Below, piece by piece: positions 1 through 15,074 of a stretch of 64,000 bases of DNA. The position numbers and the translations under genes are program-made. The notes under the pieces were generated by a model. It was not told where the DNA came from. It saw only the letters and a list, made by a program, of their open reading frames with translations, and did not search any database. The number at the start of each line of letters is the position of its first letter. The stretch's first letter is position 1. This DNA comes from Phycisphaerae bacterium (lineage in GTDB: Bacteria; Planctomycetota; Phycisphaerae; Sedimentisphaerales; Anaerobacaceae), in the NCBI GenBank assembly GCA_012744475.1, contig JAAYBV010000041.1, positions 1-64,000 of the forward strand. Reading direction: 5' to 3'.

Positions 1-170
1 AACGGAGCTTTGGGGATGGCGAATGGGAGTGGCGCATCCGTACGGAAAGGCCTCTGCGAGGCGATCCATCCCCAAGTCCTGCGGATCCGTTCGGCTTCGC
101 TCAGGACAAGCTTTGAGGCTGCCACCCTTGGCGGTCTGCGCCGGCAAGGGAATGCTGCCCTGAAATCCTG

Positions 171-320
171 ACAGACACGCCGAGCGAGTGTCTGTGAAAA
201 TATCCTGGCAGCCGTGTGGCAGCGGCAAGCGCAGGCTTGCCGATGGTGATACGCATGCCGTCGAAGCCATCGGCAGACTCCGCCTTGCTCTCCCGATGGC
301 CATCGGGACCGCTGCCACAC
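171..320. repeat. Nested inverted-repeat element (multi-branched fold)
   Basis: Seen directly: an 8-bp hairpin at 171-178/188-195 (ACAGACAC/GTGTCTGT); an outer perfect 12-bp inverted repeat GTGTGGCAGCGG at 214-225 with its complement at 309-320; inside it a GCAAGC/GCTTGC hairpin (225-240), an 8-bp stem GCCGATGG/CCATCGGC (239-246/267-274) and a perfect 16-bp palindrome CCCGATGGCCATCGGG (292-307). The arms could form a multi-way junction. It could be a structured RNA, a protein-binding cruciform or a decayed mobile repeat; nothing here decides between them. Confidence 0.6.
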
Positions 321-390
321 AGGGCGCTCCGTGGTGGAAAACGGGCCTTGCCGCGAAATCCGCACAGACACCCTTGTTTGGACACGTCTC

Positions 391-419
391 TTGAGAAACG
401 CGGCTGTTTGCGGTATGTT
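391..419 (+). promoter_or_regulatory. Sigma70-like promoter for the sulfatase-like gene
   Basis: TTGAGA at 391-396, a 17-bp spacer and TATGTT at 414-419 would start transcription near 426, about 55 nt before the ATG at 481, which has a GGAGGAGG Shine-Dalgarno of its own. Confidence 0.4.
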
Positions 420-480
420 GACAGCATCGGGAGATCGGCCTGTGCTGCTCGGCATGCCGATGCTCCGGAGGAGGACACGG

Positions 481-1872
481 ATGAAACGCCGGGCTTTTCT
501 GAGACGGGTGGTCACGTTGCTGGCAGGTTGGGCCTCGCCTGCTCCGGACGCGCTCACGTTCTGCCCCGCGTCGGAGATCAAAAGGCCCGACACCTCCGGC
601 ATGAACCTGCTGTTCATTCACGTCAGCGGGCTGACGGCCGCTGCCGTCGGCTGCTACGGGAACCAGGTAGTCAAAACTCCGAACCTGGACCGCTTTGCCA
701 CCGGGGCGACTCGTTTCACCCGATGCTATTGTCAGTCGCCGATGCCCTGCCTGTCGCGCGCGTCCCTTCTCACCGGCCTTCGTCCCGACGCGACCGGCGT
801 GCTGACCACTGGCCATGCACTTGGGCGCACCCTGCCCGCAGAGACGGGGCGGCTGCCCGATCTGCTGCGTCAGTATGGCTTTCGCACCGTCAACCTTCAC
901 GGCGCTGATGATGCCGCATCCTGCGCGGAGGTGGCATCGCACTACGAAGCACCCGAAATCCACCCATGTGAAGACTCCGAATGCGCGGACGAACGCGAGC
1001 TGGATGAACGACGAGCCGAACTGGCCGCTGAACTTCTGACAGACGCGGCCCGCAAAGGCGTGCCCTTCTTCGTGTCACTCGGGCTTTCCGAGCCTGGCGC
1101 GGGGCGACGATGCCCCAACGCCTGCCTTGATCTGTATGATGCCGACAGCATCGGTGCGGCTCGTGCACCCGCCTGTCAGGATCGCGATATTCCTGCCGTT
1201 GCCACGCGATTCGGCCGCAACGACGATGTTCTTCGTGACAGCCCCGGGGGCTTGCCCCCCGACGAGGTGGACCGGGAAACGATCCGAGCCTACTACGCCT
1301 GTGCTTCCCTTCTCGATGCCCAGGTTGGCGTCGTGCTCGACGCGCTCGACCGGGTCGGGCTCAGCAATGAGACCATCGTCATGGTGTTCGGCGAGTGCGG
1401 CTTCCACCTGGGAGAACATGGGCTCTGGGGTCCGGGCACGCTCTTCGAACAGGTGACACGCGTCCCCCTGCTGGTCCGTGTGCCCGGACTTGCCGTCCGG
1501 CAGGCCGTGTGCGAGGAGATTGTCGAGTTAGTCGATCTGCTACCTACTATCTGTGATCTCCTGACGATCCCAACGCCGGGCCGCCTGGAGGGCAAGAGCT
1601 TCGTGCCGCTGCTCTGCGATCCCGTGCAACCGTGGAAGAGAGCGGCCTTCACGCTCTGCGAAATGCCCGGGCATGTCGGGCGATCCGTGCGGACCAAACG
1701 ATGGCGCTACACAGACTGGCAATCCTCCACGACGTTGCAGCGGCAGTTCGAACTCTACGACCTGGACAGCGATCCCTGGGAGCAGGTCAATCTGGCGTTG
1801 CATCCCGACTATCGCAACGAGCGCACGATCCTGGCCAACCTCCTCCAGCGGGGCTGGCAGGCAGCCCAGTAG
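481..1872 (+). CDS. Sulfatase-fold protein with degenerate active site (probable pseudoenzyme)
   Basis: 463 residues starting at the ATG that follows GGAGGAGGACACGG; an upstream in-frame start at 331 lacks a ribosome site. The N-terminus KRRAFLR plus a short hydrophobic run looks like a Tat signal. The overall pattern is that of iduronate-2-sulfatase-like sulfatases: VVKTPNLDRFATG, RASLLTGLRPDATGV, HLGEHGLWG, RVPLLVRVPG, VRTKRWRYTDW. The catalytic signatures are altered. The metal-binding Asp-Asp after the first strand reads SG (residues 49-50). The C-x-P-S-R formylglycine motif reads P-C90-L-S-R, with the Cys shifted by one. The KPH motif reads EPG. The GDHG metal site reads GECG (304-307). 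The WGKH motif reads WGPG. The fold is confident; sulfatase activity is doubtful. It may be a substrate-binding relative. Confidence 0.85.
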   Translation: MKRRAFLRRVVTLLAGWASPAPDALTFCPASEIKRPDTSGMNLLFIHVSGLTAAAVGCYGNQVVKTPNLDRFATGATRFTRCYCQSPMPCLSRASLLTGLRPDATGVLTTGHALGRTLPAETGRLPDLLRQYGFRTVNLHGADDAASCAEVASHYEAPEIHPCEDSECADERELDERRAELAAELLTDAARKGVPFFVSLGLSEPGAGRRCPNACLDLYDADSIGAARAPACQDRDIPAVATRFGRNDDVLRDSPGGLPPDEVDRETIRAYYACASLLDAQVGVVLDALDRVGLSNETIVMVFGECGFHLGEHGLWGPGTLFEQVTRVPLLVRVPGLAVRQAVCEEIVELVDLLPTICDLLTIPTPGRLEGKSFVPLLCDPVQPWKRAAFTLCEMPGHVGRSVRTKRWRYTDWQSSTTLQRQFELYDLDSDPWEQVNLALHPDYRNERTILANLLQRGWQAAQ

Positions 1873-2050
1873 CAATTTGGAGGTCCGGACCGATACGAGT
1901 GCCCGCAGAAACAAGCGACCCAAGTCCCCAGTGCAAACTTCGCAGACGCGAAAAACCTGGCGCAAGGTCCCTGAAAAACGCTTCTGGGACGGCCCAGGCC
2001 CCGTTCTCTCCGGATTCCTGGATTCCAAGCCAAAATTATCGTACCCGCCA

Positions 2051-2079
2051 TTGATTTGGACGCCTTCGTCTGGTATAAT
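2051..2079 (+). promoter_or_regulatory. Near-consensus sigma70 promoter
   Basis: TTGATT (2051-2056), a 17-bp spacer and a perfect TATAAT (2074-2079). It is the best match to the sigma70 consensus that I see in the window. The first start codon downstream is the 21-codon ORF at 2117, about 30 nt after the expected transcription start. Confidence 0.6.
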
Positions 2080-2116
2080 GCCGTCATAACTCGTAACCAA
2101 TGGGGTGGTGTAAGCT

Positions 2117-2182
2117 ATGAACGAGATCTTCCTGACGATGTTTGTGATGCTTCTGTTCCTGGTGGGCGTCACAACACAGTAA
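2117..2182 (+). CDS. Candidate 21-residue hydrophobic membrane peptide
   Basis: The ORF encodes MNEIFLTMFVMLLFLVGVTT plus a final Gln: a short polar start followed by about 16 uninterrupted hydrophobic residues, the profile of a single-span membrane microprotein or a type-I-toxin-like peptide. Support is positional: a near-consensus promoter lies about 30 nt upstream of the ATG, and a weak purine-rich GGGGTGGTG sits seven bases before it. A small hairpin follows at 2217-2241. I do not recognise a family and such a short ORF could arise by chance. The promoter could equally make a small RNA. Confidence 0.35.
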   Translation: MNEIFLTMFVMLLFLVGVTTQ

Positions 2183-2440
2183 ACCCAGTCGAGGGACCGG
2201 CCATTTCCTGGATTTGCGCTCCGCAGACCGTATCCGGAGCGGGCCGGGCCAGGTAAGCATGCGGATAGCGAGACTGTTTCCGCACGATCGTTTGGCGGCG
2301 CGTTGCAGGCCTTCGCTATCCTTACAGATGCCCCTTACCCGGAAATCTCCCGCCTGATTCTTATCTGCTATACCACCACTTCCGCACCCCATGCGATAGC
2401 TCCACGTTTACGGTGCGCGTATCTACGTCCGAGAATTGTG

Positions 2441-2469
2441 TTGTGTTGCGCGGGCCGATCTGGCATAAT
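2441..2469 (+). promoter_or_regulatory. Promoter of the first LamG gene
   Basis: TTGTGT (2441-2446), a 17-bp spacer and CATAAT (2464-2469), giving a leader of about 340 nt before the ATG at 2811. The downstream word TTTGGTCGAAAG loosely resembles the sequence after the -10 boxes of the two other LamG genes. Confidence 0.4.
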
Positions 2470-2586
2470 CCAGTTTGGTCGAAAGTGCAATTTCTAACGT
2501 GAGCAGACATGGTACGACCGACTTGCCGGAAAGACCCCCTGCCTCACTCGGGGGACGTAAGGTGACCGGCACTCTATCCGTTCACC

Positions 2587-2736
2587 ATGTCTCGAGGCGT
2601 TCTCGGATCGCTCAGGGGAAGGAGGTGACTGTCTGTGTCCCATCGCCCTCGCCTTCAGGCGGGCATGTGGAATACCGCGCGCTGTGTCGTCTCGAAATGC
2701 CCCACCCGTCGGACAGCAGATCGAGAGACGGCATAG
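2587..2736 (+). promoter_or_regulatory. LamG leader with small ORFs around a strong SD core
   Basis: A 13-codon ORF (2587-2628) ends exactly on the SD-like core GGAAGGAGGTGA. That core sits seven bases before a GTG opening a 33-codon ORF (2635-2736, arginine- and cysteine-rich). Neither peptide is recognisable. Similar strong SD cores lie in the leaders of the LamG genes at 20013 and 23523, so this looks like a leader feature of the family, possibly attenuation or translational coupling. The LamG gene has its own GGAGGA site at 2799-2804. Confidence 0.35.
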
Positions 2737-2810
2737 ACCGAAGAACGTCACGTGGACGTCCCTCTGGACGCGGCGGCAAAAGTACCCTTATTTGGTGATG
2801 GAGGAATCTC

Positions 2811-5741
2811 ATGTTCAGGACAACGCTTTGCCTGGTCTGTTTGACCGTGGGAGTTGGACCGATGTTGGCAAGTCCAGCCGCGGCCGACCTTGTCGCGTGG
2901 TGGACATTCAACGAGGGCGCCGGCGAGACGGCCGTCGACGTCTCCAAGAACGGCCACGACGGCACCCTCAACGGGGACACCGCCTGGACGACCGGCCAGT
3001 TCGGCGGCGCCTTGGAGTTCGACGGCACCGGCGACTACGTGATGTGCGATCTCGTGGACATCGACACCGCCGTGACAGGCGGCTTGACGGTGACCGCATG
3101 GGTCAACAAGCCGGCCGGCGGAGACCGCAAGATGTGCAGCAACCGCCAGGTCTCCAATGCCGCCGGCGGCGGCTTCTCGTGCACCATCTACAACGACCGA
3201 ATGGAGATGGATGTTTGCAGCGCTTCGGTGCGCAATCTCAACCGGGACAGCGACGGTCCCATCGTCCCGGGGGACACGTGGATTCACCTGGCCTGGGTCC
3301 TCGACGACGTCGGGAACACCTTCAATGAGTACCACAACGGGGAGTTAGTCGATTCCTCGACGGAAGACGTCTCCGTGGGCCTATCGACGCAGAACTTCCG
3401 GATCGGCGCCGACTCTCCGAATCTCGGTCTTTACTTCAGCGGGATGATCGACGATCTGCGGATTTACGACCATGCGCTGACGGAGGCCGAACTGGCCGAC
3501 GTCATGACGGGCAGGGCCCCTGGCGCGGAGAAGGCGGTGGACCCGAGTCCCGCGATCGATGCGACCGATGTGCCCCGCGATGCCATCCTGAGCTGGACGG
3601 CCGGCGCATTCGCGGCGACACATGACGTCTACTTCGGTACAGCGTTCGATGACGTCAACGCCGCCAGTCGGGCCAACCCGATGGGCGTTCTGGTCAGCCC
3701 GGGCCAGAGCGGCACGACCTACGATCCGGCCGGAGCCATCCAGTTCGCTCTGACCTACTACTGGCGCGTCGATGAGGTCAACGCGGCGCCCGACAGCACG
3801 ATCTTCAAAGGCGACATCTGGAGCTTTACGGCCGAACCGCTGGCCTATCCGATCGAAGGTGTCATTGCGACGAGCAACGGCTCCTCCGGCGTGGCCGCCG
3901 ACCCGGCGAATGCGGTCAATGGCTCCGGTCTCAACGCCGACGATCAGCATTCAGTATCCGCAGAACACATGTGGTTGGCCGGCGCGCCCGCGGACGAAGC
4001 GCTCTGGATTCAGTTCGAGTTCGACGCCGTCCGCAAGCTCCACCAGATGTTCATCTGGAACTACAACGTGCAGTTCGAGCCGGTTCTCGGCTTCGGGCTC
4101 AAAGACGTCACGGTGCAATACTCCACCGACGGCGTCGAATGGGCGGCGTTCGGCGATGTCGAACTGGCTCGGGCCACGGCCTCAGCGACGTACACCTACA
4201 ACAGCGTCATTGATCTGGCCGGCGTGGCCGCCAGATACGTCCGACTCGTCGTCAACAACGGCTGGGGCATCATGGGCCAGTATGGGCTCAGCGAGGTTCG
4301 CTTCACGTATCTTCCGGTCCTGGCTCGCGAGCCGCAGCCGGCGTCCGGTGCGGTCGAAGTCTCGATCGACAGCATTCTGGACTGGCGAGGAGGCCGCGAG
4401 GCCGCTTCGCATGAGGTCTTCCTCGGAACCGATCCGGAAGCGCTCGCCCTGGCCGCCGCCGTGGACCAGTCGCAGTATGACCCCGGCGTGCTCGATCTCG
4501 GCACCACTTACTACTGGCGGATCGACGAGGTCAACGAAAACGCCAGCCCAAGTGCCTGGACCGGTGATACCTGGAGTTTCTCCACACAGGACTACCTCGT
4601 GGTGGATGACTTCGAAAGCTACACCGATGACATCGATGGCGGCGGGACGATCTTCCAGACGTGGATCGACGGATACGACGATGACACGAACGGTTCGCAG
4701 GTCGGGTACATCAGTGCGCCCTTCGCCGAGCAGACCATCGTCCACGGCGGCAAGCAGTCCATGCCCCTGTATTTCGACAATACCGCTGCGTCGACGTCCG
4801 TAGCCGACCTCGAACTGGACGGGCAGGACTGGACCCGTGCAGGCATTCAGACGCTGGTGCTGTACTTCCGCGGCGGTTCCGGCAACACGGGCGGTCAGTT
4901 CTACGCAGAGGTCAACGGCAAGAAAGTCCTCTACCCCGGTGCGGCCGATGTACTGACGAAGACGGCGTGGAAGCAGTGGAACATCGATCTGGCCTCGCTC
5001 GGCGTCAATCTGCAAAACGTCACCACGCTGAGCGTCGGCGTTGACGGCGGCGGTTCCGGTCTCGTGTACGTCGATGACATCCTGCTGTACCGGTCCGCCC
5101 CGGAGATCGCGGCGCCGGTCGATCCCGGAACCGACGGACTGGTGCTCCAGTATCTCTTCGACAGCGACGCAACGGACAGCTCGGGCAACGGCTATCACGG
5201 CACGCTGCTGGGCGATGCCCTTACGATGGACGGTGTGCTCGGTCTGGACGGCGCCGATGACGCGGTGGCCGTCCCGCGGATCGGCGGCGCGACCGCCACG
5301 TTCAGCGCATTCAGCTACACAATGTGGATCAACCCCGCGTCGGGCCTGGCCGCATTGCAGTTTGCCGGTGGGATGAACACGGACGGCTGGGTGGCTGGAG
5401 CCGTGCACTTCAAGCTCTCTTACGGCGCGGTCAATGCCGGCATCAACGGTCTTGACGGCGGCGACCTCCAAGGCGCCACCGTGGTCGGTGCGGGCGAATG
5501 GAGCCATATGGCTCTGGCCGTCTCCGAAACCCGAGCGGCCATCTATCTGAACGGCCAGGTGGAAGATTCCCGCGATCTGGCAGCCCCCCTGACGAATCTC
5601 ATCGTGGGCGGCGCGTCTCTGGGCGCCTGGAACAACAACGGCAGCATCGAGCGCGAAATGAGCGGCCAGATGGACGATGTCCGCATCTACGACCGCGCGC
5701 TGTCGGAGGGCGAGGTGCTCTTTCTGGCCGATCACCGGTAG
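2811..5741 (+). CDS. Secreted LamG / F5-8C / Fn3-like multidomain protein
   Basis: 976 residues with a Sec signal peptide cleaved near ASPAAADL. Domains in order: LamG (about 26-240, opening AWWTFNEGAG), a Fn3-like Ig fold (242-343, LSWTAGAFAATHDVYFGT), a discoidin/F5-8 type C-like module (344-502, ending RYVRLVVNNGWGI..GLSEVRF), a second Fn3-like module (503-592), a jelly-roll CBM-like module (593-763, VVDDFESYTDD to GLVYVDDI) and a second LamG (about 770-976). These are extracellular carbohydrate- or protein-binding folds, so a surface adhesin or substrate-binding role is inferred; no catalytic domain is visible. The start is set by GGAGGAATCTC before the ATG. It is paralogous to the proteins at 20013 and 23523, from which it differs by the C-terminal LamG. 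Confidence 0.85.
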   Translation: MFRTTLCLVCLTVGVGPMLASPAAADLVAWWTFNEGAGETAVDVSKNGHDGTLNGDTAWTTGQFGGALEFDGTGDYVMCDLVDIDTAVTGGLTVTAWVNKPAGGDRKMCSNRQVSNAAGGGFSCTIYNDRMEMDVCSASVRNLNRDSDGPIVPGDTWIHLAWVLDDVGNTFNEYHNGELVDSSTEDVSVGLSTQNFRIGADSPNLGLYFSGMIDDLRIYDHALTEAELADVMTGRAPGAEKAVDPSPAIDATDVPRDAILSWTAGAFAATHDVYFGTAFDDVNAASRANPMGVLVSPGQSGTTYDPAGAIQFALTYYWRVDEVNAAPDSTIFKGDIWSFTAEPLAYPIEGVIATSNGSSGVAADPANAVNGSGLNADDQHSVSAEHMWLAGAPADEALWIQFEFDAVRKLHQMFIWNYNVQFEPVLGFGLKDVTVQYSTDGVEWAAFGDVELARATASATYTYNSVIDLAGVAARYVRLVVNNGWGIMGQYGLSEVRFTYLPVLAREPQPASGAVEVSIDSILDWRGGREAASHEVFLGTDPEALALAAAVDQSQYDPGVLDLGTTYYWRIDEVNENASPSAWTGDTWSFSTQDYLVVDDFESYTDDIDGGGTIFQTWIDGYDDDTNGSQVGYISAPFAEQTIVHGGKQSMPLYFDNTAASTSVADLELDGQDWTRAGIQTLVLYFRGGSGNTGGQFYAEVNGKKVLYPGAADVLTKTAWKQWNIDLASLGVNLQNVTTLSVGVDGGGSGLVYVDDILLYRSAPEIAAPVDPGTDGLVLQYLFDSDATDSSGNGYHGTLLGDALTMDGVLGLDGADDAVAVPRIGGATATFSAFSYTMWINPASGLAALQFAGGMNTDGWVAGAVHFKLSYGAVNAGINGLDGGDLQGATVVGAGEWSHMALAVSETRAAIYLNGQVEDSRDLAAPLTNLIVGGASLGAWNNNGSIEREMSGQMDDVRIYDRALSEGEVLFLADHR

Positions 5742-5792
5742 AACGCCTTCTGCTGCATCGAGGGTTGCGGACACTGGCACCATGGACTATCA

Positions 5793-5831
5793 CGGGGCCT
5801 GTTTCGACGAACGTCGGGACGGGCCCCGTTT
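5793..5831 (+). terminator. Probable terminator after the LamG gene
   Basis: CGGGGCC (5793-5799) pairs with GGCCCCG (5822-5828) around an inner CGAC/GTCG stem, followed by a short T run. It lies 50 nt past the stop codon. Confidence 0.5.
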
Positions 5832-5890
5832 GCATTGGCGAACACCGGCCTCTGCTCAGCGTCGGTGGCCGGTGGCGGCTATGTAGTTGA

Positions 5891-5918
5891 TTGACGCACC
5901 ACCCTGTGCGGATATGAT
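5891..5918 (+). promoter_or_regulatory. Sigma70-like promoter for the oxidoreductase
   Basis: TTGACG (5891-5896), a 16-bp spacer and TATGAT (5913-5918). The predicted start of transcription is about 60 nt before the ATG at 5987. Confidence 0.5.
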
Positions 5919-5986
5919 ACGTGTGCAGAATCGGGTCAACCGGATGCAGCTTTCATCAGGACCGATGGTGGAAAGGACGGGACACG

Positions 5987-7282
5987 ATGGCGAAGATGAA
6001 TCGGCGGGATTTCCTCGGGGCGGCACTTGGCAGCAGTCTGGCCATGAGTGGTCTGGCTCGGCAGGTCGGTGGCGATCAAGCGAGTGAACCCAGAATCGGA
6101 TTGGGCGTCATCGGCTGCGGGAATTACGGCATGGCCGACATCCGTGCCGCGTTCAGCGTCGGCGGCGTCGAGGTCCTCGCGCTATGCGACGTGGACAGCC
6201 GGCATCTCAAAGACAGCGCCGACAAGGTCGAGCAACTGCAGGGCTCCAGGCCTAGGACCTTCAAGCACTATGGCGAATTGTTGGAGACCCCCGGTCTGGA
6301 TGCCATCATTATCGCTACACCTCCGCAATGGCATGCGCTGCCCTTCATCGCCGCGGTCGAGAAGGGGCTGGACGTCTACTGTGAGAAGCCGCTCGCCTAT
6401 GATGTCCGCGAGAGCCGCGCGATGGTCGAAGCGGCGCAAAAGGAAAAGGATGTCATCGTTCAGATCGGCTTCCAGCGCCGACAGAGTCCGGCCATTCAAC
6501 AGGCGCGCGAGTACATCCGCCAGGGCAATCTCGGACGTGTCGTTCAGGCGGATGCGCAGATTCACTACACGGCGGGCATCCTCGACACGACCCCACAGGA
6601 CCCGCCGGCGTCGCTGGATTGGGACCTCTGGTCGGGCCCGGCGCCGAAGCTGCCGTACTGCCCGCAGATCGGCCACTTCGCCTGGCGGCTGGAGAAGACC
6701 ACGGGCCACGGCCACCTGGTGGACTGGGGCATCCATCTGATCGATGCGACGCGATGGATTCTCGGCGAGACCACACCGAAAAGCGTTCAGGCTTCCGGCG
6801 GCATCTACCACTTCAAAGACAAGATCACCACGCCCGATGTTCTCTCGGTGCAGTTCGACTTCGAGACCTGTCCGGTGTTCTGGAAGCACCGCATCTACGG
6901 CGCCGCAGAGTATACGCCGGAAGTGTCCAATGGCATCTTCTTCTATGGCGAGAAAGGCACCATCTTCGTCACGGACCAGCGCTGGGTCATCATCCCCAGG
7001 GGCAGAGATGCCGAACGCATCGAGCACAATGTCAAGGCGGACATGGGGGCCGCTCACATGGCCGAATTCCTCGGCGCCGTTCGGGCCAGAAAGCAGCCTG
7101 GCTGCACCATCGAGGAGGGATTCCGCTCCACAGCCACGGTCAAGCTGGCCATGATCGCCTACGAGGTTGGCGCCAAGATCGCCTGGGATGACCGGACCGA
7201 GCAGATCACCAACCACGCCCAGGCCAATGCTCTGCTCAAACGGGAGTACCGCGCGCCGTGGAAACACCCATACCAGGATTGA
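5987..7282 (+). CDS. Gfo/Idh/MocA family oxidoreductase with Tat signal
   Basis: 431 residues. The N-terminus carries NRRDFLGAALG, a twin-arginine signal, so the enzyme is predicted to be exported folded with its nicotinamide cofactor. A Rossmann motif GVIGCGNYG lies at 40-48, the family EKP motif (EKPLAYD) near 134, and the substrate-side motif DWGIHLID near 246. Members oxidise or reduce sugars and sugar derivatives; the exact substrate cannot be read. The start was chosen at the ATG after GGAAAGGACGG; the ATG three codons later is also possible. It precedes the DUF5060 glycoside hydrolase by about 110 nt in the same direction, which fits joint action on a sugar substrate. Confidence 0.88.
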   Translation: MAKMNRRDFLGAALGSSLAMSGLARQVGGDQASEPRIGLGVIGCGNYGMADIRAAFSVGGVEVLALCDVDSRHLKDSADKVEQLQGSRPRTFKHYGELLETPGLDAIIIATPPQWHALPFIAAVEKGLDVYCEKPLAYDVRESRAMVEAAQKEKDVIVQIGFQRRQSPAIQQAREYIRQGNLGRVVQADAQIHYTAGILDTTPQDPPASLDWDLWSGPAPKLPYCPQIGHFAWRLEKTTGHGHLVDWGIHLIDATRWILGETTPKSVQASGGIYHFKDKITTPDVLSVQFDFETCPVFWKHRIYGAAEYTPEVSNGIFFYGEKGTIFVTDQRWVIIPRGRDAERIEHNVKADMGAAHMAEFLGAVRARKQPGCTIEEGFRSTATVKLAMIAYEVGAKIAWDDRTEQITNHAQANALLKREYRAPWKHPYQD

Positions 7283-7391
7283 CGGCTCCGACGAGAAGAA
7301 CTTCATGGCCGCCGACGGCAGCAGAACCCGGCAGATGCACGTTCGCTTCGAGCATGTGCCGACCCGCAACCAGTTGCTTTCTTGGGAGAGT

Positions 7392-9125
7392 ATGATGTTG
7401 AAATATGGGTTGCCGATATGGATCATCGTTTGCCTGGCCGCAACAGCAGCGACTCCGAAAGCGCCGGTTGTCAGTTCCGCATGGCCGAGTACGCCTGGGA
7501 CAATCGGTCTGTATGAGAAGTTCGAGTTGCGGATCGATCTGGAGGCGACGTATTCGAATCCGTTCGATCCGGACCAGATTGATCTATGGACGGAGTTCAC
7601 GGCGCCATCCGGCAAGACACAAACCATCTGGGGTTTTTACAATCCGTCGAGTTGGGCGTCTTTGTGGATGGTGCGGTTTGCGCCGACCGAGATCGGACAA
7701 TGGAAGTACGTTGTCAAAGTCAAGGACAAGGAGGGAACCGCCGAGGGCCGTCCGGGCACGTTCAATGTCACGACATCCGATCATCACGGCTTCGTCCGGA
7801 TCGCGCCAAACCAACGCTATCTCAAGCACGACGATGGGACGGCGTTCTACGGCGTGGGCCTGTGGTATAACGACAGCTACGAACAGTTCAACGCGGGCCA
7901 GATCACTGAGGAAGGCCTCGACGGACTGAAGCGCCTGGGCGGCAACTTCATCAGCTTCTTTCACACGCCTCTGGAGACGATGGGCACCGGCCTGGGCCGC
8001 TACGACCAGAACCGCTGCGGCCGGCTCGACCAACTCTTCGAATGGTGCGAGCGGCGCGACATTCACATCAGTTGGAACATCTGGTTTCACTCGTATATCT
8101 CGCAGGCCGTCTGGGGCGGAGGCAACGCGCGGTATCGCAACAATCCCTATCGACTGGTCACCGACGCGAAAGGCTTCTTCGCCAGCGAGCAAGCCTGGCA
8201 GTACCAGGAAAAGCTCAACCGCTACATCATCGCCCGCTGGGGCTACAGCCGGGCCTTGTTCCTGTGGTTCATCATAGACGAGATCAACGGCACCGAAGGC
8301 TGGCAGGATGGCGACAGAGCGGCAGCGGAACAGTGGTGCCGAAAGATGGACGCGTTCTTCAACGAGCACGACCCATACAGCCGCCCGACCACCGGGACCC
8401 AGAGCGGGGGCATCGGCCAGTGGTGGCCTGAGGGCTATCGCATCTTCGACGTCGCGGCCCGTGAGATCTATGAGGCGCAGGGGCACCCGATGCCCCGAAG
8501 CGGCAAGATCGGCCCTGACGACGAGAGCCCTCTGCGGGCGAGCTACCTGACCTATGCCAAGCAGAGTCAGGACCTCTGGACAGGCTTCGACAAGCCCGCC
8601 ATCGTCGGCGAGTGCGGCTATGACCACACCTACTACGAGCCGGGGATGCCGGGTTACCTGGCCATGTACCACAACGCGCTGTGGGTAGGCCTGGCCAATG
8701 GGTTGTGCTGCACGCCTTTCTGGTGGGCCTACTCCGACTGGATCAACGACGCGGTGGTGACGAACCAGATGCAGTCCTTCGCGCGGTTTGTGTCCGACAT
8801 CGACTTCACCAATCTCGATTGGCGGCCCGTATCAATCCACAGCGACCGTTGCGATGCGTGGGCTATGGGCAGTGACTCGCTGATCTTCGGGTGGGTGGTC
8901 AATCCACGGTCGGGCGTGGCCCGTGAATCCTTCACGATAGGGGGGCTGGCCGACGGCTCGTACGAGGTCCGTCTCTACCGCACGTGGCGAGGCCGCTACC
9001 ACGACGCCCAGACCGTGGAATGTCGCGACGGGACGCTGACAGTCGCGATTCCCGAGCTGATGACGACGGGTGGCCATGCCTCGCACATCGGTGACGACGT
9101 GGCGTTCAAGATCAAGCCACGGTAG
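7392..9125 (+). CDS. DUF5060-containing glycoside hydrolase, secreted
   Basis: 577 residues from ATGATG with GGGAG upstream and a clear signal peptide (MMLKYGLPIWIIVCLAATAA). Residues of about 30-135 form a DUF5060-like beta-sandwich (W.EFTAPSGKT, FAPTEIGQWKY). Residues 140-480 form a TIM barrel (FYGVGLWYND, LKRLGGNFISFFHTP). Likely catalytic carboxylates are E297 in IIDEINGTE (acid/base) and E407 in VGECGYD (nucleophile), the spacing expected for a clan GH-A retaining enzyme. The C-terminal 85 residues are a beta-rich module like the putative collagen-binding domain often found behind such barrels. Substrate unknown; a plant or algal polysaccharide is plausible. Confidence 0.8.
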   Translation: MMLKYGLPIWIIVCLAATAATPKAPVVSSAWPSTPGTIGLYEKFELRIDLEATYSNPFDPDQIDLWTEFTAPSGKTQTIWGFYNPSSWASLWMVRFAPTEIGQWKYVVKVKDKEGTAEGRPGTFNVTTSDHHGFVRIAPNQRYLKHDDGTAFYGVGLWYNDSYEQFNAGQITEEGLDGLKRLGGNFISFFHTPLETMGTGLGRYDQNRCGRLDQLFEWCERRDIHISWNIWFHSYISQAVWGGGNARYRNNPYRLVTDAKGFFASEQAWQYQEKLNRYIIARWGYSRALFLWFIIDEINGTEGWQDGDRAAAEQWCRKMDAFFNEHDPYSRPTTGTQSGGIGQWWPEGYRIFDVAAREIYEAQGHPMPRSGKIGPDDESPLRASYLTYAKQSQDLWTGFDKPAIVGECGYDHTYYEPGMPGYLAMYHNALWVGLANGLCCTPFWWAYSDWINDAVVTNQMQSFARFVSDIDFTNLDWRPVSIHSDRCDAWAMGSDSLIFGWVVNPRSGVARESFTIGGLADGSYEVRLYRTWRGRYHDAQTVECRDGTLTVAIPELMTTGGHASHIGDDVAFKIKPR

Positions 9126-9141
9126 GCTCTCCGGGTGCCGC

Positions 9142-9909
9142 TCACCAGGAGTAGAGCACGCCGGCGACGAAGGAAACGTCCTGCGACTTGTCGACGATCG
9201 GACTGTCTTTGATCTCGCTGTCGAACCACTCATATTGGAGGGCGCCAAGCAGGCTCCACTTGCCGGCCAGCTTGCGGCGCACCGCCAATCTGACAAATGG
9301 GTCCGTTGCGTCGTCCGCCTCGTAGGCGGGCCGCCCGGCCCGGGCCTCGTCGGTCTTCACGCCATAGTAGTAGTCCACGAGCTTGTCGGTCTTGTATCGC
9401 AGGCCCACCGACGGGACGAAATCGAAGCCGAAACGGGAGAGCACGGCGGTGTAACTGAGCTCCACTTCCTGCCCATCGTGTTTGCCGAACAGGTCGGTGA
9501 TCCAGGAGACGCCGATCAGGCCCCAGTCGCTCAACCAGGTCAGGCCGACTCCTCCGTCCAGCGTAAGGTCGCGGTCGTCCATGCCTGCCAGCTCGTGGCT
9601 GTCATCCTCTTCGTAGCCGTCGAAGCGGGGCTGGAGGACCGGTCCAAGCGACCAGCCACCCTTGTGAAACAGCCGATAGCCGCCTCCGACGCCGCGCAGG
9701 TAGAGCCTCTCGCCTTCGTAGCCGAACATCGGAATCGGATAGATCTTCGGATCCACCCCCTCGTAGGGTTTCGAACTGACCAGCATCCCGGCGCCAACGA
9801 ACACCTCGCGCTTCCGGGGCTCGGCCGGCGCCTCCGTCTCGTCCCCATATGCCGTGATCGTGGTTGCCGCACAGATGAGCAGCGCACTGCTGACGACTGC
9901 GATCTTCAT
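9142..9909 (-). CDS. MipA/OmpV-like outer membrane protein
   Basis: 255 residues beginning with a signal peptide (MKIAVVSSALLICAATT). The mature part is a run of amphipathic beta strands with aromatic girdles: VFVGAGMLVSSKPYEG, GERLYLRGVGGGYRLF, LDGGVGLTWLSDWG, GLRYKTDKLVDYYYGV. It ends in a C-terminal strand closing with W, as expected of an outer membrane beta-barrel. The layout resembles the MltA-interacting MipA/OmpV family. A start 12 nt upstream (9921) is possible. It converges with the glycoside hydrolase, leaving only 16 nt between the two stop codons. Confidence 0.75.
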   Translation of the reverse strand: MKIAVVSSALLICAATTITAYGDETEAPAEPRKREVFVGAGMLVSSKPYEGVDPKIYPIPMFGYEGERLYLRGVGGGYRLFHKGGWSLGPVLQPRFDGYEEDDSHELAGMDDRDLTLDGGVGLTWLSDWGLIGVSWITDLFGKHDGQEVELSYTAVLSRFGFDFVPSVGLRYKTDKLVDYYYGVKTDEARAGRPAYEADDATDPFVRLAVRRKLAGKWSLLGALQYEWFDSEIKDSPIVDKSQDVSFVAGVLYSW

Positions 9910-9999
9910 TCTTCGTTCCATCCCTGCAACAGACAGACCATTCCTTTCCCGGACGGTATGCATGGCAAACCGCCCGACGTGGCCAGACCATAGCACGCC

Positions 10000-10342
10000 C
10001 GCCCTGTTTTGTCAGCAAAATACCAGAACGTCTCTTCCGGGGTGACGAAGCCGGCGGCGGCAGAGTGAGGTACGGGCGGATCAGACGCCCCTATAGTGCC
10101 CCAGGAACGCCGTCAGCCCTTCGCGGGCGAACCAATGCGGGTCCCAGGCGTCGTTGTCAGTCCCGTACGCTGAGGCTTCGTGCCTTCCGCCGGTGTCTGC
10201 GGAGCACAGAAAGAACGTGCGTGCCCGCAGAGTCCTGGTATCCTGTCTCGTGTCGCACAGCGCTCCCTCGGGACCTGCTGATGTGCCTGTGGAATCCCCA
10301 CGGCCGAATCCGGTTCTGGCATCCTGACATGAGAGGTCGAAC
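10000..10342. other. Intergenic region, possible decayed gene end
   Basis: No complete gene. On the minus strand about 10081-10182 reads as a protein-like C-terminus (YGTDNDAWDPHWFAREGL.. then GHYRGV and stop) with no plausible beginning. It may be the remnant of a deleted gene or chance. Confidence 0.25.
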
Positions 10343-11611
10343 ATGAAAACGACAATCGCAGCAGTAGGCCTGTTGTTGATCACAGCATGGTACGCCAGTG
10401 GCGTGGCTCAGGCGGAGAACTGGCCGTGTTTTCGAGGGCCGACCCGGCAGGGCATCTCCCACGAGACGATGGTCCCGACACGATGGAGCCCTACAGAGGG
10501 AATCGTCTGGAGGCAATCGATCCCGGGCGACGGAGTCTCATCGCCTATTGTTTTTGGCAGTCGGGTCTTCCTCACGGCCGCGACCGACGGAGGGGCGTCG
10601 CTTCGCCTGCTCGTCCTCGACCGTTCCGATGGGCACGTCCTCTGGGACAAGGAGATCCTCCGCCAGAGGCCTGGACACAAGTCCAGGCAGAACTCCTACG
10701 CGACGAGCACGCCGGCCACGGACGGCGAACGAGTCTACGTCGCTGCCTGCGACGGCCGAATCGTCGCCGTGGCGATGACCGGCGAGGTCGCCTGGGTCAA
10801 CGACGATCTCGAGTACTACAGCGAGCACGGGCTGGCGGTCTCGCCCGTTCTCTATGACGATCTGGTTATCATGCCGTTCGACGCAAGCAGTCCCGGACCC
10901 GACAAGAAAGTGGGGTGGCAGATTCCGTGGGACAAGGCTGTCATCCTGGCGGTCGACAAGAACACAGGACAGACGCGATGGCAAGGCAGGCGCGGCAGTT
11001 CACGGATCGCTCACGTCGTGCCGATCGTGGTCACGATCGACGGGTGTGATCAGCTTGTCAGCGGCGCCGGCGACGTCGTCCAGGGCTTCGATCTGAAGAC
11101 AGGCGATCGACTGTGGACCGTGTCGAGCCCGGGCGAAGGCGTCGTTCCCTCGATCGTCGGCGACGAGAGTCTGATCTTCGCGGCGTCAGGGTTCGGCGAA
11201 TCCGCCATCCGTGCGGTCCGCCCCGACGGACAAGGTGACGTCACCAAGACCCACACTGCATGGCAGTCCGGCGACGACGTCCCGAAGGTTCCGTCCATGC
11301 TCTACGTCGAACCCCATCTCTACCTGATCACGGAGAGCGGCATCGTCAAATGTCTTCAAGGCACGACCGGCCAGGTCATCTGGAAGGATCGGCTCGGAGG
11401 CAAATTCTCCGCTTCTCCCATATGGGCCGACGGGAAGATCTATTTCCTTTCGGAAAAAGGCACGACCACCATCATTCAGGATGGGCCCGAATTCAGAGTC
11501 CTCGCGGAGAACGACCTCAGCGAGGCTTGCTACGCCAGTCCCGCCATTTCCGAAGGCCTTCTGTTCATCCGTTCGGAACGAAGCCTCTTCTGCATCGGCC
11601 AAGCCCGATAG
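10343..11611 (+). CDS. Secreted PQQ-binding-like beta-propeller protein
   Basis: 422 residues with a signal peptide ending near VAQAEN and then NWPCFRGPTRQGIS, the signature opening of planctomycete PQQ-propeller proteins. Repeated blades carry W-containing PQQ/BamB-type motifs: GSRVFLTAA..LLVLDRSDGHVLWD, AVDKNTGQTRWQGRRG, FDLKTGDRLWTVSSPGEG, LQGTTGQVIWKDRLGG. The fold is an eight-bladed WD40-like propeller in the periplasm. Whether it binds a quinone cofactor or acts as a scaffold cannot be told. The start has GAGAGG eight bases upstream. Confidence 0.85.
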   Translation: MKTTIAAVGLLLITAWYASGVAQAENWPCFRGPTRQGISHETMVPTRWSPTEGIVWRQSIPGDGVSSPIVFGSRVFLTAATDGGASLRLLVLDRSDGHVLWDKEILRQRPGHKSRQNSYATSTPATDGERVYVAACDGRIVAVAMTGEVAWVNDDLEYYSEHGLAVSPVLYDDLVIMPFDASSPGPDKKVGWQIPWDKAVILAVDKNTGQTRWQGRRGSSRIAHVVPIVVTIDGCDQLVSGAGDVVQGFDLKTGDRLWTVSSPGEGVVPSIVGDESLIFAASGFGESAIRAVRPDGQGDVTKTHTAWQSGDDVPKVPSMLYVEPHLYLITESGIVKCLQGTTGQVIWKDRLGGKFSASPIWADGKIYFLSEKGTTTIIQDGPEFRVLAENDLSEACYASPAISEGLLFIRSERSLFCIGQAR

Positions 11612-11635
11612 GCTCTTGGGCCTGTGGATTCGCGG

Positions 11636-14600
11636 TTACCGCAATGCCTCCAGTTGGGCCTTGGCCCAGACGTGGCTGACGTTGAGCCGGGCGGCTTGGC
11701 CGAACTCGTTGCGGGCGTCGTCCGATCGTCCGGCGCCCAGACAGCCCAGCCCCAGCAGGTAATGGGCGGAGGCCAGCCGCACCTGCCGAGCCTGCTGTTC
11801 GCCGAACTTCGCGAAGAAATCGGCCTGCTCGTCCCGCTCGATTCGCTCGGTTCCTGTTCGAACCAGCTCATCGAAGATTTCTTTCGCCTGCTCCTCCTGA
11901 CCGAGTTGCCGCATGGACATCGCACGGTAGAACCGCGATTCGGGAGCCCAGCGCGCGCCTTCCTGGGAAGCGGCTTTCTCATCGAAGCTCTTCGCCTTCT
12001 CTGCATCGTCGAGAGCCTCATGGGCCCGGGCGGTGTAGTAGGCCACCTGGGCGGCACGAGGATCGTTCTGAGGTCGGCCCACCGAGAGGTTCTCAGGATA
12101 CTCTGCCGCCGCGAGGAAGTCCTCCAGAGCCTTCTGAGGCTGGTTGTCTCTGAGCCGCGCAATCCCGCGAAGCAGGTGCGCGTCCACGAAGACGTCGTGG
12201 ATCTCACCGCCCCCTTCCCGGACGTGGAAATGGTGGTTCTCCAGGTTCCCGATGGCCTCATCGTAGTGCCCTGTCAGGACCATCGCCGTGATCTCACAGA
12301 CAAAGCTGTCGTTGCGTTTGACAACCGTGGCGTGGTGCTTCTGAAGGATTTCCAACCGCCTAGCAGGGTCCACGTTGCCCATCTCGTACAACTGATCCAG
12401 CTCGGCGAACAGACGCGCATCCTCGCCGCTGCACGCAATAGCCTTCTCATAGCTGGCGATTGCTTTGGAGACGTCGTTCTGTGTCCTGTAGTAAGCCCAT
12501 CCGAGATTGCGATGAGCCAGCGCAAAGCCTGGATCGAGGACGGCGGCACGTTCCCAGTGAGCGATGGCCTGCTCAGGCTGGACATCATATAGGGCATTCC
12601 CAAGGTAATACAGCGCGCGAGCGTCATTCGGATTGTTCTCAAGGGCAGCGTTCAGAGCGGCAATCGACTCATGCCGGAACGGGAAGCAGTAGTCCGGCGG
12701 CATCGTCGGCGCCAGCGCGAAGAGTTGCCGGGACGCCTCGACGTCGCCCTGCTGCCGGTGGATGTAGCCGAGATAGTAGTACACCAGCGGATACAGGCCG
12801 GCGGCGTCCGTCTTGTCACGCACCGCGCGCGTGAGCACCTCGACCGCCTCGTCCCAGAGACCCCAGCCCATGTAATCCGTCGCCAGTTCAAGGTAGGCCT
12901 GGACGTTACGCTGCATCGCCTGCTCCAGCTTCGCGAGCGTGGCGGCGGCACGGCGTTTCTGTCCGAGGGCCGTCTGGATCAGGCACAGCTCGTTCATCGC
13001 GACGAAGTCCAGCGGATCGTCGGCGAGCACTTGCTGCACGACCGTCCGGGCCTGCTTGCGGTCGCCCTGGTGTCGCAGTACGGCAGTCTTGAGACTCAGC
13101 AACTTCGTGTTCTCTGTGTTCGTGGCCAATGACTCATCGATCTGTTCGAGCGCGGCAGCCCAGTCCCCCCTGCCGCACGACAGCTCGGCAAGCTGGTGGT
13201 GGCCGGCGGAATGGAAGGCATAGTCCCATGTAGACCGGTAGAAGACATCGTATGCCTCGTCGATCTTGCCCTGGGCGCGCAGCGCCACCCCCAGGTGGAA
13301 CAGGGCCTCCGTGTCGACCGGACGCGTGTAATCCGTCGACAGTCTCGTCACCGCGCGACGCAGGTGCTCTTCGGCCTTGGCATACATCGCCCGTTTGTTG
13401 TAGTTGATTCCCACGATCGTGTTGGTCCGCGTGTCATTCGGGTCACGCCGCAGGGCCTCTTCGTAATAGTCGAACGGATTGACCCTTGGGTTGTGAATCT
13501 GCTCGACGCGCAGCCCTGTCAGATACAGTTCGTCGATCGTTTCGATGTTCTGTGGCGATGGTGGGTTCTTCACGACTTCGGGAAGGTTCGGATCGTATTC
13601 ACGATGGGCAGGCTGAAAGGCAATCAGTTCCTGCCCCGACTCGGAGACAAGAGCAGCCCGGAGATCAGTGGCCTTGACGGCCTCAGGGACCGCTACCTCG
13701 GCCACGAACGGCCGGTCGGGACCGATGGCAACGGTCTGGTCCAGGACCGTCACGCCGGAGGCCGTCAGCAGCGCCCTGGCCTTCTTGTGCGGCGCCGTCG
13801 CATTGAAGCCTACCTTGGCCTTGCCATCGGCCAGTTCGAGATTGACTGCGGCGTCGAGATTGGCGTTCTTGAAGCCTCCGATCTCGCGGATCGGATACCA
13901 GCACTGCCGGAACGTCTTGACCTCATACGGCTTGATCCAACTGTAGTCGGGCTGATTGTCCGAGAAGGCGCCGACCATCAGCTCGGCGTACGGCCCGTCC
14001 GTATCGGTCAGGACCTTGTCCCACATGCGGCCATTGGGCCCGGGACTCCACTCCCACAGCTTGGCCCCGCAGACGACGTGATGGTTGCCCACGTGAACGA
14101 CGCCCGCCTTCTGGCCGTGGTCGTAGCCCCCCATGAAATCCTCCTGGAGGTCCCAGGCGAAGAACGAGATAGGCTCGGGGTGATTCTTCCACCAGCTCAG
14201 GTCCACGCCGCGATAGTCGGTGCCGCGATAGGTCTCATTGGCGATCGGCCAGTGGGCAAAGTCGTTCTTGGAGTGGTACGTCGCGGCGGTGACGCTCGGT
14301 GGGAAGATCACCTGGTAATCGTCGTTGACGTGAACCGCGACGTTGGCCCAGTACAGGATCGAGTGCGGCTGGGCCGTCCGGTTGAACAGCTTGACCGTCG
14401 TGTCGATATTCGAGCGGCCCGGATGGAGCGTCACGCCGATCAGCCATTTCATGCGATGACGCCGTTCCGTCTCGCCGAACCAGATCGTCTTGCTGCCGTC
14501 GGCGTTCTCCGCCAGCGTGTAATCGACAGGCATGTAGGTCGTGTTGCGATGATGGTGGAAGACGCACCATTCGATGCCGCCGGAGATCCACGCGCCGAGC

Positions 14601-14980
14601 ATGCCGATCAGCGCCGGTTTGACTACGCTCTGCCGGTAGAAGATCTCGTAATTGTTGGTCTTGTCGGTCGCGTAGAACAGCCGCCCGCCGATCTCCGGCA
14701 GGATGCACAGCTTGATGTACTCATTCTCCAGGTACAACGCCGTGTAGGTCTGCTCCTCCCGGACGTTCGTCACGCCGTCCTGCATCGCGTACGGATAGAT
14801 CCGCTTCTGTGCGCCCTGATACGATTCATTGGTGTAGAAACGCGGGTTGGTGTCGGGCGCATCCAGCCTGTAGGTGGGGATCGTCAGCGGCTCCTGCCAG
14901 ACCTTGACCGCCCCCTGGACCGGCGCGAAGAAGAAAAGCACGAGAAGAAACGACAGACGAGCGCATCGTTGCGGTGACAT
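11636..14980 (-). CDS. DUF5107 and TPR-repeat secreted protein
   Basis: 1114 residues. The start was set at the ATG preceded by GGAAAGGAG, followed by a signal peptide (SFLLVLFFFAPVQGAV). About residues 25-430 match the DUF5107 type seen in Bacteroidetes and Planctomycetes carbohydrate loci: LENEYIKLCILPEIGGRLF, GAWISGGIEWCVFHHHRN, WEWSPGPNGRMWDKVLTD. The rest is a long array of TPR repeats (YEEALRRDPNDTRTNTIVGI, ALYYLGNALYDVQPEQAIAHW, ALAHRNLGWAYYRTQNDVSKA). DUF5107 has a galactose-mutarotase-like character, so carbohydrate binding is likely. A strong hairpin (15001-15074) sits directly upstream of its Shine-Dalgarno. Confidence 0.85.
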   Translation of the reverse strand: MSPQRCARLSFLLVLFFFAPVQGAVKVWQEPLTIPTYRLDAPDTNPRFYTNESYQGAQKRIYPYAMQDGVTNVREEQTYTALYLENEYIKLCILPEIGGRLFYATDKTNNYEIFYRQSVVKPALIGMLGAWISGGIEWCVFHHHRNTTYMPVDYTLAENADGSKTIWFGETERRHRMKWLIGVTLHPGRSNIDTTVKLFNRTAQPHSILYWANVAVHVNDDYQVIFPPSVTAATYHSKNDFAHWPIANETYRGTDYRGVDLSWWKNHPEPISFFAWDLQEDFMGGYDHGQKAGVVHVGNHHVVCGAKLWEWSPGPNGRMWDKVLTDTDGPYAELMVGAFSDNQPDYSWIKPYEVKTFRQCWYPIREIGGFKNANLDAAVNLELADGKAKVGFNATAPHKKARALLTASGVTVLDQTVAIGPDRPFVAEVAVPEAVKATDLRAALVSESGQELIAFQPAHREYDPNLPEVVKNPPSPQNIETIDELYLTGLRVEQIHNPRVNPFDYYEEALRRDPNDTRTNTIVGINYNKRAMYAKAEEHLRRAVTRLSTDYTRPVDTEALFHLGVALRAQGKIDEAYDVFYRSTWDYAFHSAGHHQLAELSCGRGDWAAALEQIDESLATNTENTKLLSLKTAVLRHQGDRKQARTVVQQVLADDPLDFVAMNELCLIQTALGQKRRAAATLAKLEQAMQRNVQAYLELATDYMGWGLWDEAVEVLTRAVRDKTDAAGLYPLVYYYLGYIHRQQGDVEASRQLFALAPTMPPDYCFPFRHESIAALNAALENNPNDARALYYLGNALYDVQPEQAIAHWERAAVLDPGFALAHRNLGWAYYRTQNDVSKAIASYEKAIACSGEDARLFAELDQLYEMGNVDPARRLEILQKHHATVVKRNDSFVCEITAMVLTGHYDEAIGNLENHHFHVREGGGEIHDVFVDAHLLRGIARLRDNQPQKALEDFLAAAEYPENLSVGRPQNDPRAAQVAYYTARAHEALDDAEKAKSFDEKAASQEGARWAPESRFYRAMSMRQLGQEEQAKEIFDELVRTGTERIERDEQADFFAKFGEQQARQVRLASAHYLLGLGCLGAGRSDDARNEFGQAARLNVSHVWAKAQLEALR

Positions 14981-15000
14981 GAGCCAGGCACTCCTTTCCA

Positions 15001-15074
15001 TGGTAGTCCATTGCGGCCCCCGGCCCGGCCCAGCACACGCCCCGGCCGGCCTGGGGGCTCACGCCATGCTACCA
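15001..15074 (-). promoter_or_regulatory. Long GC hairpin between LamG-TSP3 and TPR genes
   Basis: Outer arms TGGTAG (15001-15006) and CTACCA (15069-15074) enclose a 15-bp GC-rich stem (15016-15030/15044-15058) with one wobble and one mismatch. On the minus strand it ends right at the AAAGGAG of the TPR gene. It may terminate the upstream LamG-TSP3 transcript or control access to the ribosome site. Confidence 0.45.

Follow-up and report, generated by a model that had tools for sequence, protein, structure and literature searches.

The 64,000-nucleotide stretch of Phycisphaerae DNA analyzed here (the window), which coincides with the start of its contig, carries a gene for a 463-residue sulfatase-fold protein that is almost certainly catalytically dead as a sulfatase and, as a pseudoenzyme, very probably maintained under selection. 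The best explanation, which we hold with moderate confidence, is a selected S1 pseudoenzyme that acts as an extracytoplasmic binding or scaffold protein through its C-terminal subdomain. Pseudoenzymes themselves are known, and what is new here is a pseudoenzyme clade in the S1 family with an intact sister at hand; no description of an S1 pseudo-sulfatase clade was found in searches of an open-access literature library. The gene passes the Pfam model PF00884 and would be counted as a sulfatase though incapable of the known chemistry. Moreover, the clade and its living intact sisters form a step-by-step record of the death of a sulfatase and of the later whereabouts of selection, and given that record a binding role is directly testable.

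Catalytic columns and predicted fold of the window protein

The open reading frame had been given the correct coordinates and strand in a preliminary description of this DNA, and its features are listed in Table 1. A purine-rich site similar to the ribosome-binding site of the window gene lies at about the same place 5' of all six orthologs, and the twin-arginine start predicts that the pseudoenzyme is probably exported by the Tat route.

Table 1. Features of the pseudoenzyme gene and its neighbors in the window.
Feature	Position	Strand	Basis or occurrence
Ribosome-binding site (Shine-Dalgarno) GGAGGAGG	467..474	+	
Sulfatase-fold pseudoenzyme gene, 463 aa	481..1872	+	ORF with ATG at 481, stop at 1872
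Twin-arginine (Tat) motif K-R-R-A-F-L	484..501	+	K-R-R-x-F-L in 6/6 orthologs
Lost acidic metal pair, now S49-G50 (E-D in nearest intact sisters)	625..630	+	Alignment with intact homologs
Lost formylglycine motif, now P89-C90-L91-S92-R93	745..759	+	Alignment, motif scan
Lost K-P-H, now E204-P205-G206	1090..1098	+	Alignment with intact homologs
Lost D-H metal pair, now E305-C306	1393..1398	+	Alignment with intact homologs
Lost active-site Lys of W-x-K, now P318	1432..1434	+	Alignment with intact homologs
C-terminal subdomain, residues 326-463	1456..1869	+	Strongest constraint in clade
C-terminal helix, residues 442-462	1804..1866	+	8 clade-specific invariant residues
LamG / F5_8-type-C protein	2811..5741	+	Syntenic in G004, G005
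Gfo/Idh/MocA oxidoreductase, twin-arginine start	5987..7282	+	Syntenic in G004, G005, G002
MipA/OmpV-type protein (PF06629)	9142..9996	-	Near pseudoenzyme in 6/6 genomes
DUF5107-TPR protein	11636..15001	-	Ortholog adjoins intact sister sulfatase in G056

The window protein matches the Pfam Sulfatase model with 107 bits (cut-off 25) over residues 42-362 and SGSH_C with 62 bits over residues 311-455, the combination of sulfatase fold and SGSH-type C-terminal subdomain by which S1 family members are recognized. An AlphaFold2 model built on an alignment of nine rows (mean pLDDT 74.7, pTM 0.80; weak at residues 1-35, 142-169, 229-232, and 249-257) has as its best structural match the S1_7 ulvan sulfatase 6hhm (Z 45.1, rmsd 2.2 Å, 396 residues) and also resembles the iduronate-2-sulfatase 5fql (Z 37.6, 2.4 Å over 386 residues), in agreement with the sulfatase fold first assigned to the protein. 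Dimeric sulfatases of the same fold (SpAS1, SpAS2) are also among the structural matches. As modeled, the full-length S1 sulfatase fold is retained by the window protein.

The identity of the catalytic columns in S1 sulfatases is general knowledge. For the Cys, the Arg, and the G-K Lys it is backed by the SulfAtlas paper (PMC5066984). Every replacement that had been named for the window protein (SG for the acidic pair, P-C-L-S-R for the formylglycine motif, EPG for K-P-H, E-C for the second metal pair, and P318 for the Lys) proved to be in register with intact homologs. The column of the formylglycine Cys is occupied by P89, C90 being an unrelated Cys, and a scan of the whole protein found no [CS]-x-[PA]-x-R motif anywhere; no in-register Cys or metal ligand, which had been named as a finding that would overturn the assignment, was present in the window protein. 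Two further residues are lost, the G-K lysine K141 (now G) and the His that follows it, which has no counterpart; the motif Arg, R93, is retained. The whole fold, the PF00884 and SGSH_C matches, the N-terminal framework, and the C-terminal subdomain are thus like those of S1 sulfatases (nearest among solved structures: the S1_7 ulvan sulfatase FA22070, 6hhm; iduronate-2-sulfatase, 5fql and 6ioz), whereas the formylglycine precursor, the divalent metal ligands (D/E-D, D-H/N), and the catalytic Lys/His set are missing. The framework around the lost residues had been called well kept, which holds for residues ~41-135 and 266-463 but not for ~141-190, where the sequence has drifted beyond reliable alignment.

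Sulfatase maturation is probably available in the window's genome, which has five matches to PF03781 (the formylglycine-generating-enzyme family) and encodes a single radical-SAM sulfatase maturase that scores above the TIGR03942 cut-off. Of its 27 PF00884 genes, 25 keep [CS]-x-[PAS]-x-R, and the exceptions are the window gene and a membrane protein (L069, G000:C19:30142-30993) that is LtaS-like by eye; with the maturation genes, this indicates that the loss is specific to the window gene.

Orthologs, intact sisters, and purifying selection

We searched with profiles in 89 genomes of the family, 161 of the order, and 397 of the class (a sample of the class), scoring at most 18, 10, and 4 candidates per genome, respectively. 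An ortholog is present in all six genomes examined of the genus, and none has the formylglycine Cys; the column holds P in the window, G in G005, G002, and G003, and S in G001 and G004. Sequencing or assembly error, or chance, is an unlikely source of this absence because six genomes agree on it, the five further genomes of the genus likewise being without the Cys. Identity to the window protein, which varies with the alignment, is 57-62% for G005, G001, and G004, 50-52% for G002, and 40-48% for G003. Among the candidates scored per genome outside the genus, only two exceed 400 bits (424-432 bits), the next being G095 at 373, and both are intact sisters from two other genera (G056:C1, L111:8106-9740, and G063:C346, L112:776-2440) that carry C-N-P-S-R, E-D, K-P-H, D-H-G, and the Lys, and are 52% (over 306 residues) and 43% (over 383 residues) identical to the window protein, respectively. 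They share the twin-arginine start and have a middle region some 75 residues longer (201 codons vs. 125). In a tree the six dead proteins group together with the intact sister pair outside, and the catalytic residues are thus lost in the clade and retained in its sister.

The losses are concentrated at catalytic columns. Each of 91 columns reaches at least 90% identity across 21 intact homologs (a non-random set chosen from the best-scoring loci, of which L084 and L105 carried a flag for one internal stop in the match and were read as the longest open stretch). Nine of the 91 columns are catalytic, and five or more of the six pseudoenzymes keep only one of these nine (R93), as against 66 of the 82 others (Fisher p 6e-5); within residues 39-325 the counts are 1/9 and 35/49 (p 1e-3). 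A clade with the same substitutions had been anticipated, and it exists insofar as all six proteins lack the Cys, D305, K318, and the second His, but the residues that replace the catalytic ones vary between species. G002 alone still has D50, as D-D, and G001 alone has K141 and H206; H306 is found in four proteins and R93 in five. The varied replacements, the D-D pair of G002, and the Ser-type motif of G004 indicate stepwise loss and not the one coordinated swap proposed at first; the alignment is best read as an early common loss followed by independent drift, lineage by lineage.

The G004 ortholog (L040:7381-8751) has S-G-P-S-R, a Ser-type formylglycine motif, at the nucleophile position and has no metal site, its columns D50, K141, H206, D305, and K318 being G, Q, R, Y, and A. 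Since a sulfatase maturase above the TIGR03942 cut-off is encoded in all six genomes of the genus, the G004 copy, judged by its motif, could still be modified, and Ser may have been an intermediate between Cys and Gly or Pro. This motif and the maturases, together with S92 and S95 in all six pseudoenzymes and R93 in most, would fit a changed enzyme, in which a new or residual active site of the same fold carries out a different chemistry. The sulfatase superfamily requires metal. We regard a changed enzyme as very improbable, given that the metal columns are lost (D50 in one of six, D305 in none), that the replacements are species-specific, and that no catalytic column is newly fixed to another polar residue in the clade.

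The SulfAtlas paper describes nine S1 sequences from Planctomycetes/Lentisphaerae that were judged possibly inactive, being without the motif Arg (PMC5066984). The present clade differs from those nine as described there in that it mostly retains this Arg and has lost nearly everything else. In the alignment presented in that paper, the nucleophile is Cys or Ser in every sequence (PMC5066984), so that a clade without the Cys would presumably have stayed invisible there.

Selection on the reading frame was estimated in several ways. For G001 and G004, the least diverged pair (dS 0.44), omega is 0.245 (bootstrap 95% 0.18-0.33) overall, 0.32 in residues 39-325, and 0.062 (0.02-0.13) in residues 326-463. 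A custom-written branch-class codon likelihood, run on 8 of the 11 aligned sequences and on columns present in at least five of the eight, with one stem length at its bound, gave the pseudoenzyme branches omega 0.19 in residues 39-325 and 0.08 in residues 326-463, and rejected omega = 1 on them in both regions (2dlnL 339 and 364, respectively). On the intact branches, which represent one pair with saturated synonymous sites, omega was 0.037 and 0.196. Pairwise omega of the pseudoenzyme (0.20-0.31) is comparable to that of its neighbors (LamG 0.17-0.21, Gfo/Idh 0.13-0.19, MipA 0.16-0.34), and as a whole it thus resembles a fast but functional gene. The dN/dS below 1 that had been suggested as a check is therefore what we find.

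Under slow decay the gene would be a remnant on its way out, under weakened constraint since its function was lost and not yet disrupted. In its favor, omega in residues 39-325 is about five times that of the intact sister, protein identity to G004 and G005 is 57-60% vs. 77-84% for the neighboring LamG and Gfo/Idh proteins, and the G003 ortholog is without 77 of the 125 residues 141-265. Against it, omega lies far below 1 in both regions and resembles that of MipA overall, all six frames are free of stop codons and come with a ribosome-binding site and Tat motif, and neutral simulations with 1000 runs at each of two divergences, 0.22 and 0.5 substitutions per site, ended with only 3 and 0 open frames, respectively. 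Decay is accordingly judged quite improbable, and the earlier view of a selected pseudoenzyme stands on the low dN/dS, the absence of stops, and the concentration of loss at catalytic columns. The G003 ortholog (L043:4986-6215, in G003:C251) is the most diverged and also has no G-E-H-G-L-W segment; its missing 77 residues look like erosion in that lineage, and with residues 326-463 kept at 66-70% identity it is a natural truncation experiment.

Distribution of constraint and candidate roles

Measured against the intact sister, constraint in the clade is about five-fold weaker over residues 39-325 and at least as strong over residues 326-463. The C-terminal part is more alike than residues 39-325 in all 15 pairs of pseudoenzymes (mean ratio 1.57), and in the intact sister pair it is residues 39-325 that are more alike (0.78, vs. 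0.66 in 326-463). Across the wider set of intact homologs, 141 of 210 pairs are also more alike in the C-terminal part (mean ratio 1.08), but only 18 of 79 intact pairs of comparable closeness are (mean 0.94); these controls make the shift of constraint one of degree. Synonymous divergence is hardly lowered in the C-terminal part (dS between G001 and G004 0.38, vs. 0.44 overall), which places the constraint mainly on the protein and renders it unlikely that a DNA-level or RNA element accounts for the conservation toward the 3' end. No Rfam model matched at gathering thresholds in window positions 1-12000.

There are 28 residues that are invariant in the six pseudoenzymes and present in no more than 20% of intact homologs, and 18 of them lie in residues 326-463 (binomial p 2e-4). 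Those of the last helix (445, 448, 449, 450, 452, 453, 456, and 457) cluster, on a helical wheel drawn from the sequence, on one side opposite the leucines of the helix (permutation p 0.03). Some of the 28, for example C82, C211, and C393, occur in the intact sisters as well and are marks of the subfamily, not new. Docking of a partner through the C-terminal part, to which this pattern points, is about as probable as not. More tentatively, the target of selection may have moved to the C-terminal subdomain and away from the sulfate-binding cleft, with a new protein-docking helix as the result, turning a sulfatase into an extracytoplasmic adaptor while the intact form lives on within the family.

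In active sulfatases, residues 141-265 belong to the substrate side. In the pseudoenzymes this region varies more than any other (identity 0.21-0.47, the closest pair excepted), is mostly absent from G003, and does not contain an insert that the intact sisters have in the middle region. These features bear on the proposal of the preliminary description that the protein binds sulfated glycans, that is, that the dead cleft holds the old substrate, a sulfated glycan or sulfate ester, uncut in a lectin-like or substrate-capture role. The locus includes LamG/F5_8C and DUF5060 proteins, a GH28 gene lies near the intact sister, and the sulfatase fold is kept in the model, all of which agree with such a binder; however, K141, the following His, H206, and K318 are retained in 1, 0, 1, and 0 of six proteins, and the middle being the least constrained region is a pattern unexpected for a retained glycan-binding cleft. 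With constraint moved to the C-terminal subdomain, we consider a glycan binder rather unlikely; the regulatory role that had been named as an alternative to it may still apply.

The reading that we prefer, a selected pseudoenzyme with a binding or scaffold role, starts from an intact S1 sulfatase with a twin-arginine start, a form that persists in two related genera. Comparison shows that the Cys nucleophile, a metal-ligand Asp, an active-site Lys, and a His were lost on or near the stem of the genus, and further catalytic residues lineage by lineage, and that purifying selection has preserved the protein in all six genomes, mainly in its core and in the C-terminal subdomain with the newly fixed residues of the last helix. 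Its role would most likely be non-catalytic and outside the cytoplasm, with a partner docked via the C-terminal subdomain and helix. Candidates for this partner, chosen solely by synteny and fold, are the products of the conserved neighborhood, with MipA foremost, and an active sulfatase.

In the main alternative to MipA as partner, the pseudoenzyme would act in the manner of a prozyme, pairing in a mixed dimer with an active sulfatase of its own cell and stabilizing or activating that enzyme via the C-terminal subdomain. Possible partners exist among the 25 PF00884 genes of the genome that keep the motif, dimeric SpAS1 and SpAS2 are among the structural matches, and the constraint lies in the C-terminal subdomain. 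No close active paralog was found in the genus, though, the best (G003:C341) scoring 330 bits vs. 424-432 for the intact sisters among the at most 18 candidates scored per genome, and no second sulfatase was found in the flanks examined around the six genes. We rate the prozyme as unlikely.

A regulatory protein with a sulfatase-like periplasmic domain is known in YejM/PbgA/LapC, as described in three reports (PMC7240159, PMC7773988, PMC7576196). Its deadness is disputed, an intact metal site and phosphatase activity being reported in one of them (PMC7576196). It resides in the inner membrane and has more in common with LtaS/EptA than with S1 sulfatases. The window protein has a twin-arginine leader at its N terminus and no match to the LapC/YejM/PbgA model with its transmembrane domain; the NCBIfam LapC model reaches 18.9 bits (cut-off 825) over residues 265-358 only, which does not place it in that family.

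Gene neighborhood

Between the pseudoenzyme and MipA genes there are no genes in G001, only a micro-ORF in G003, and LamG, Gfo/Idh, and DUF5060 genes in the window; with intervening genes differing between genomes in this way, the synteny with MipA could be historical. A DUF5107-TPR gene 64% identical to its window ortholog is found ~0.12-0.14 kb from the intact sulfatase of G056, and an ortholog is also near the pseudoenzyme in G002. This gene, common to the intact G056 locus and to pseudoenzyme loci, supports descent of both from the same locus.

The micro-ORF encodes a hydrophobic peptide of 21 residues (window 2117-2182, +) behind a nearly invariant leader (2102-2116), and is present as a single copy in 7 of the 89 family genomes, namely the six of the genus and G062, which belongs to another genus. 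It lies directly 3' of the pseudoenzyme in five of the six; in G001 it is on another contig, adjoining LamG and DUF5107. Its variable sites fall 8, 3, and 14 times at codon positions 1, 2, and 3 among the seven copies, a pattern that suggests a translated small membrane peptide. The G062 locus (L122, G062:C87:31000-46000) is a related neighborhood with AsmA-like, micro-ORF, and MipA genes, in which neither a sulfatase gene nor a relic of one was detected, and the sulfatase thus seems to be an optional member of the locus.

The window holds three LamG / F5_8C-like proteins, at 2811-5741, ~20025-22088, and ~23523-25883 (all +). The latter two are ~46% identical to the first, and the three are a local family expansion.
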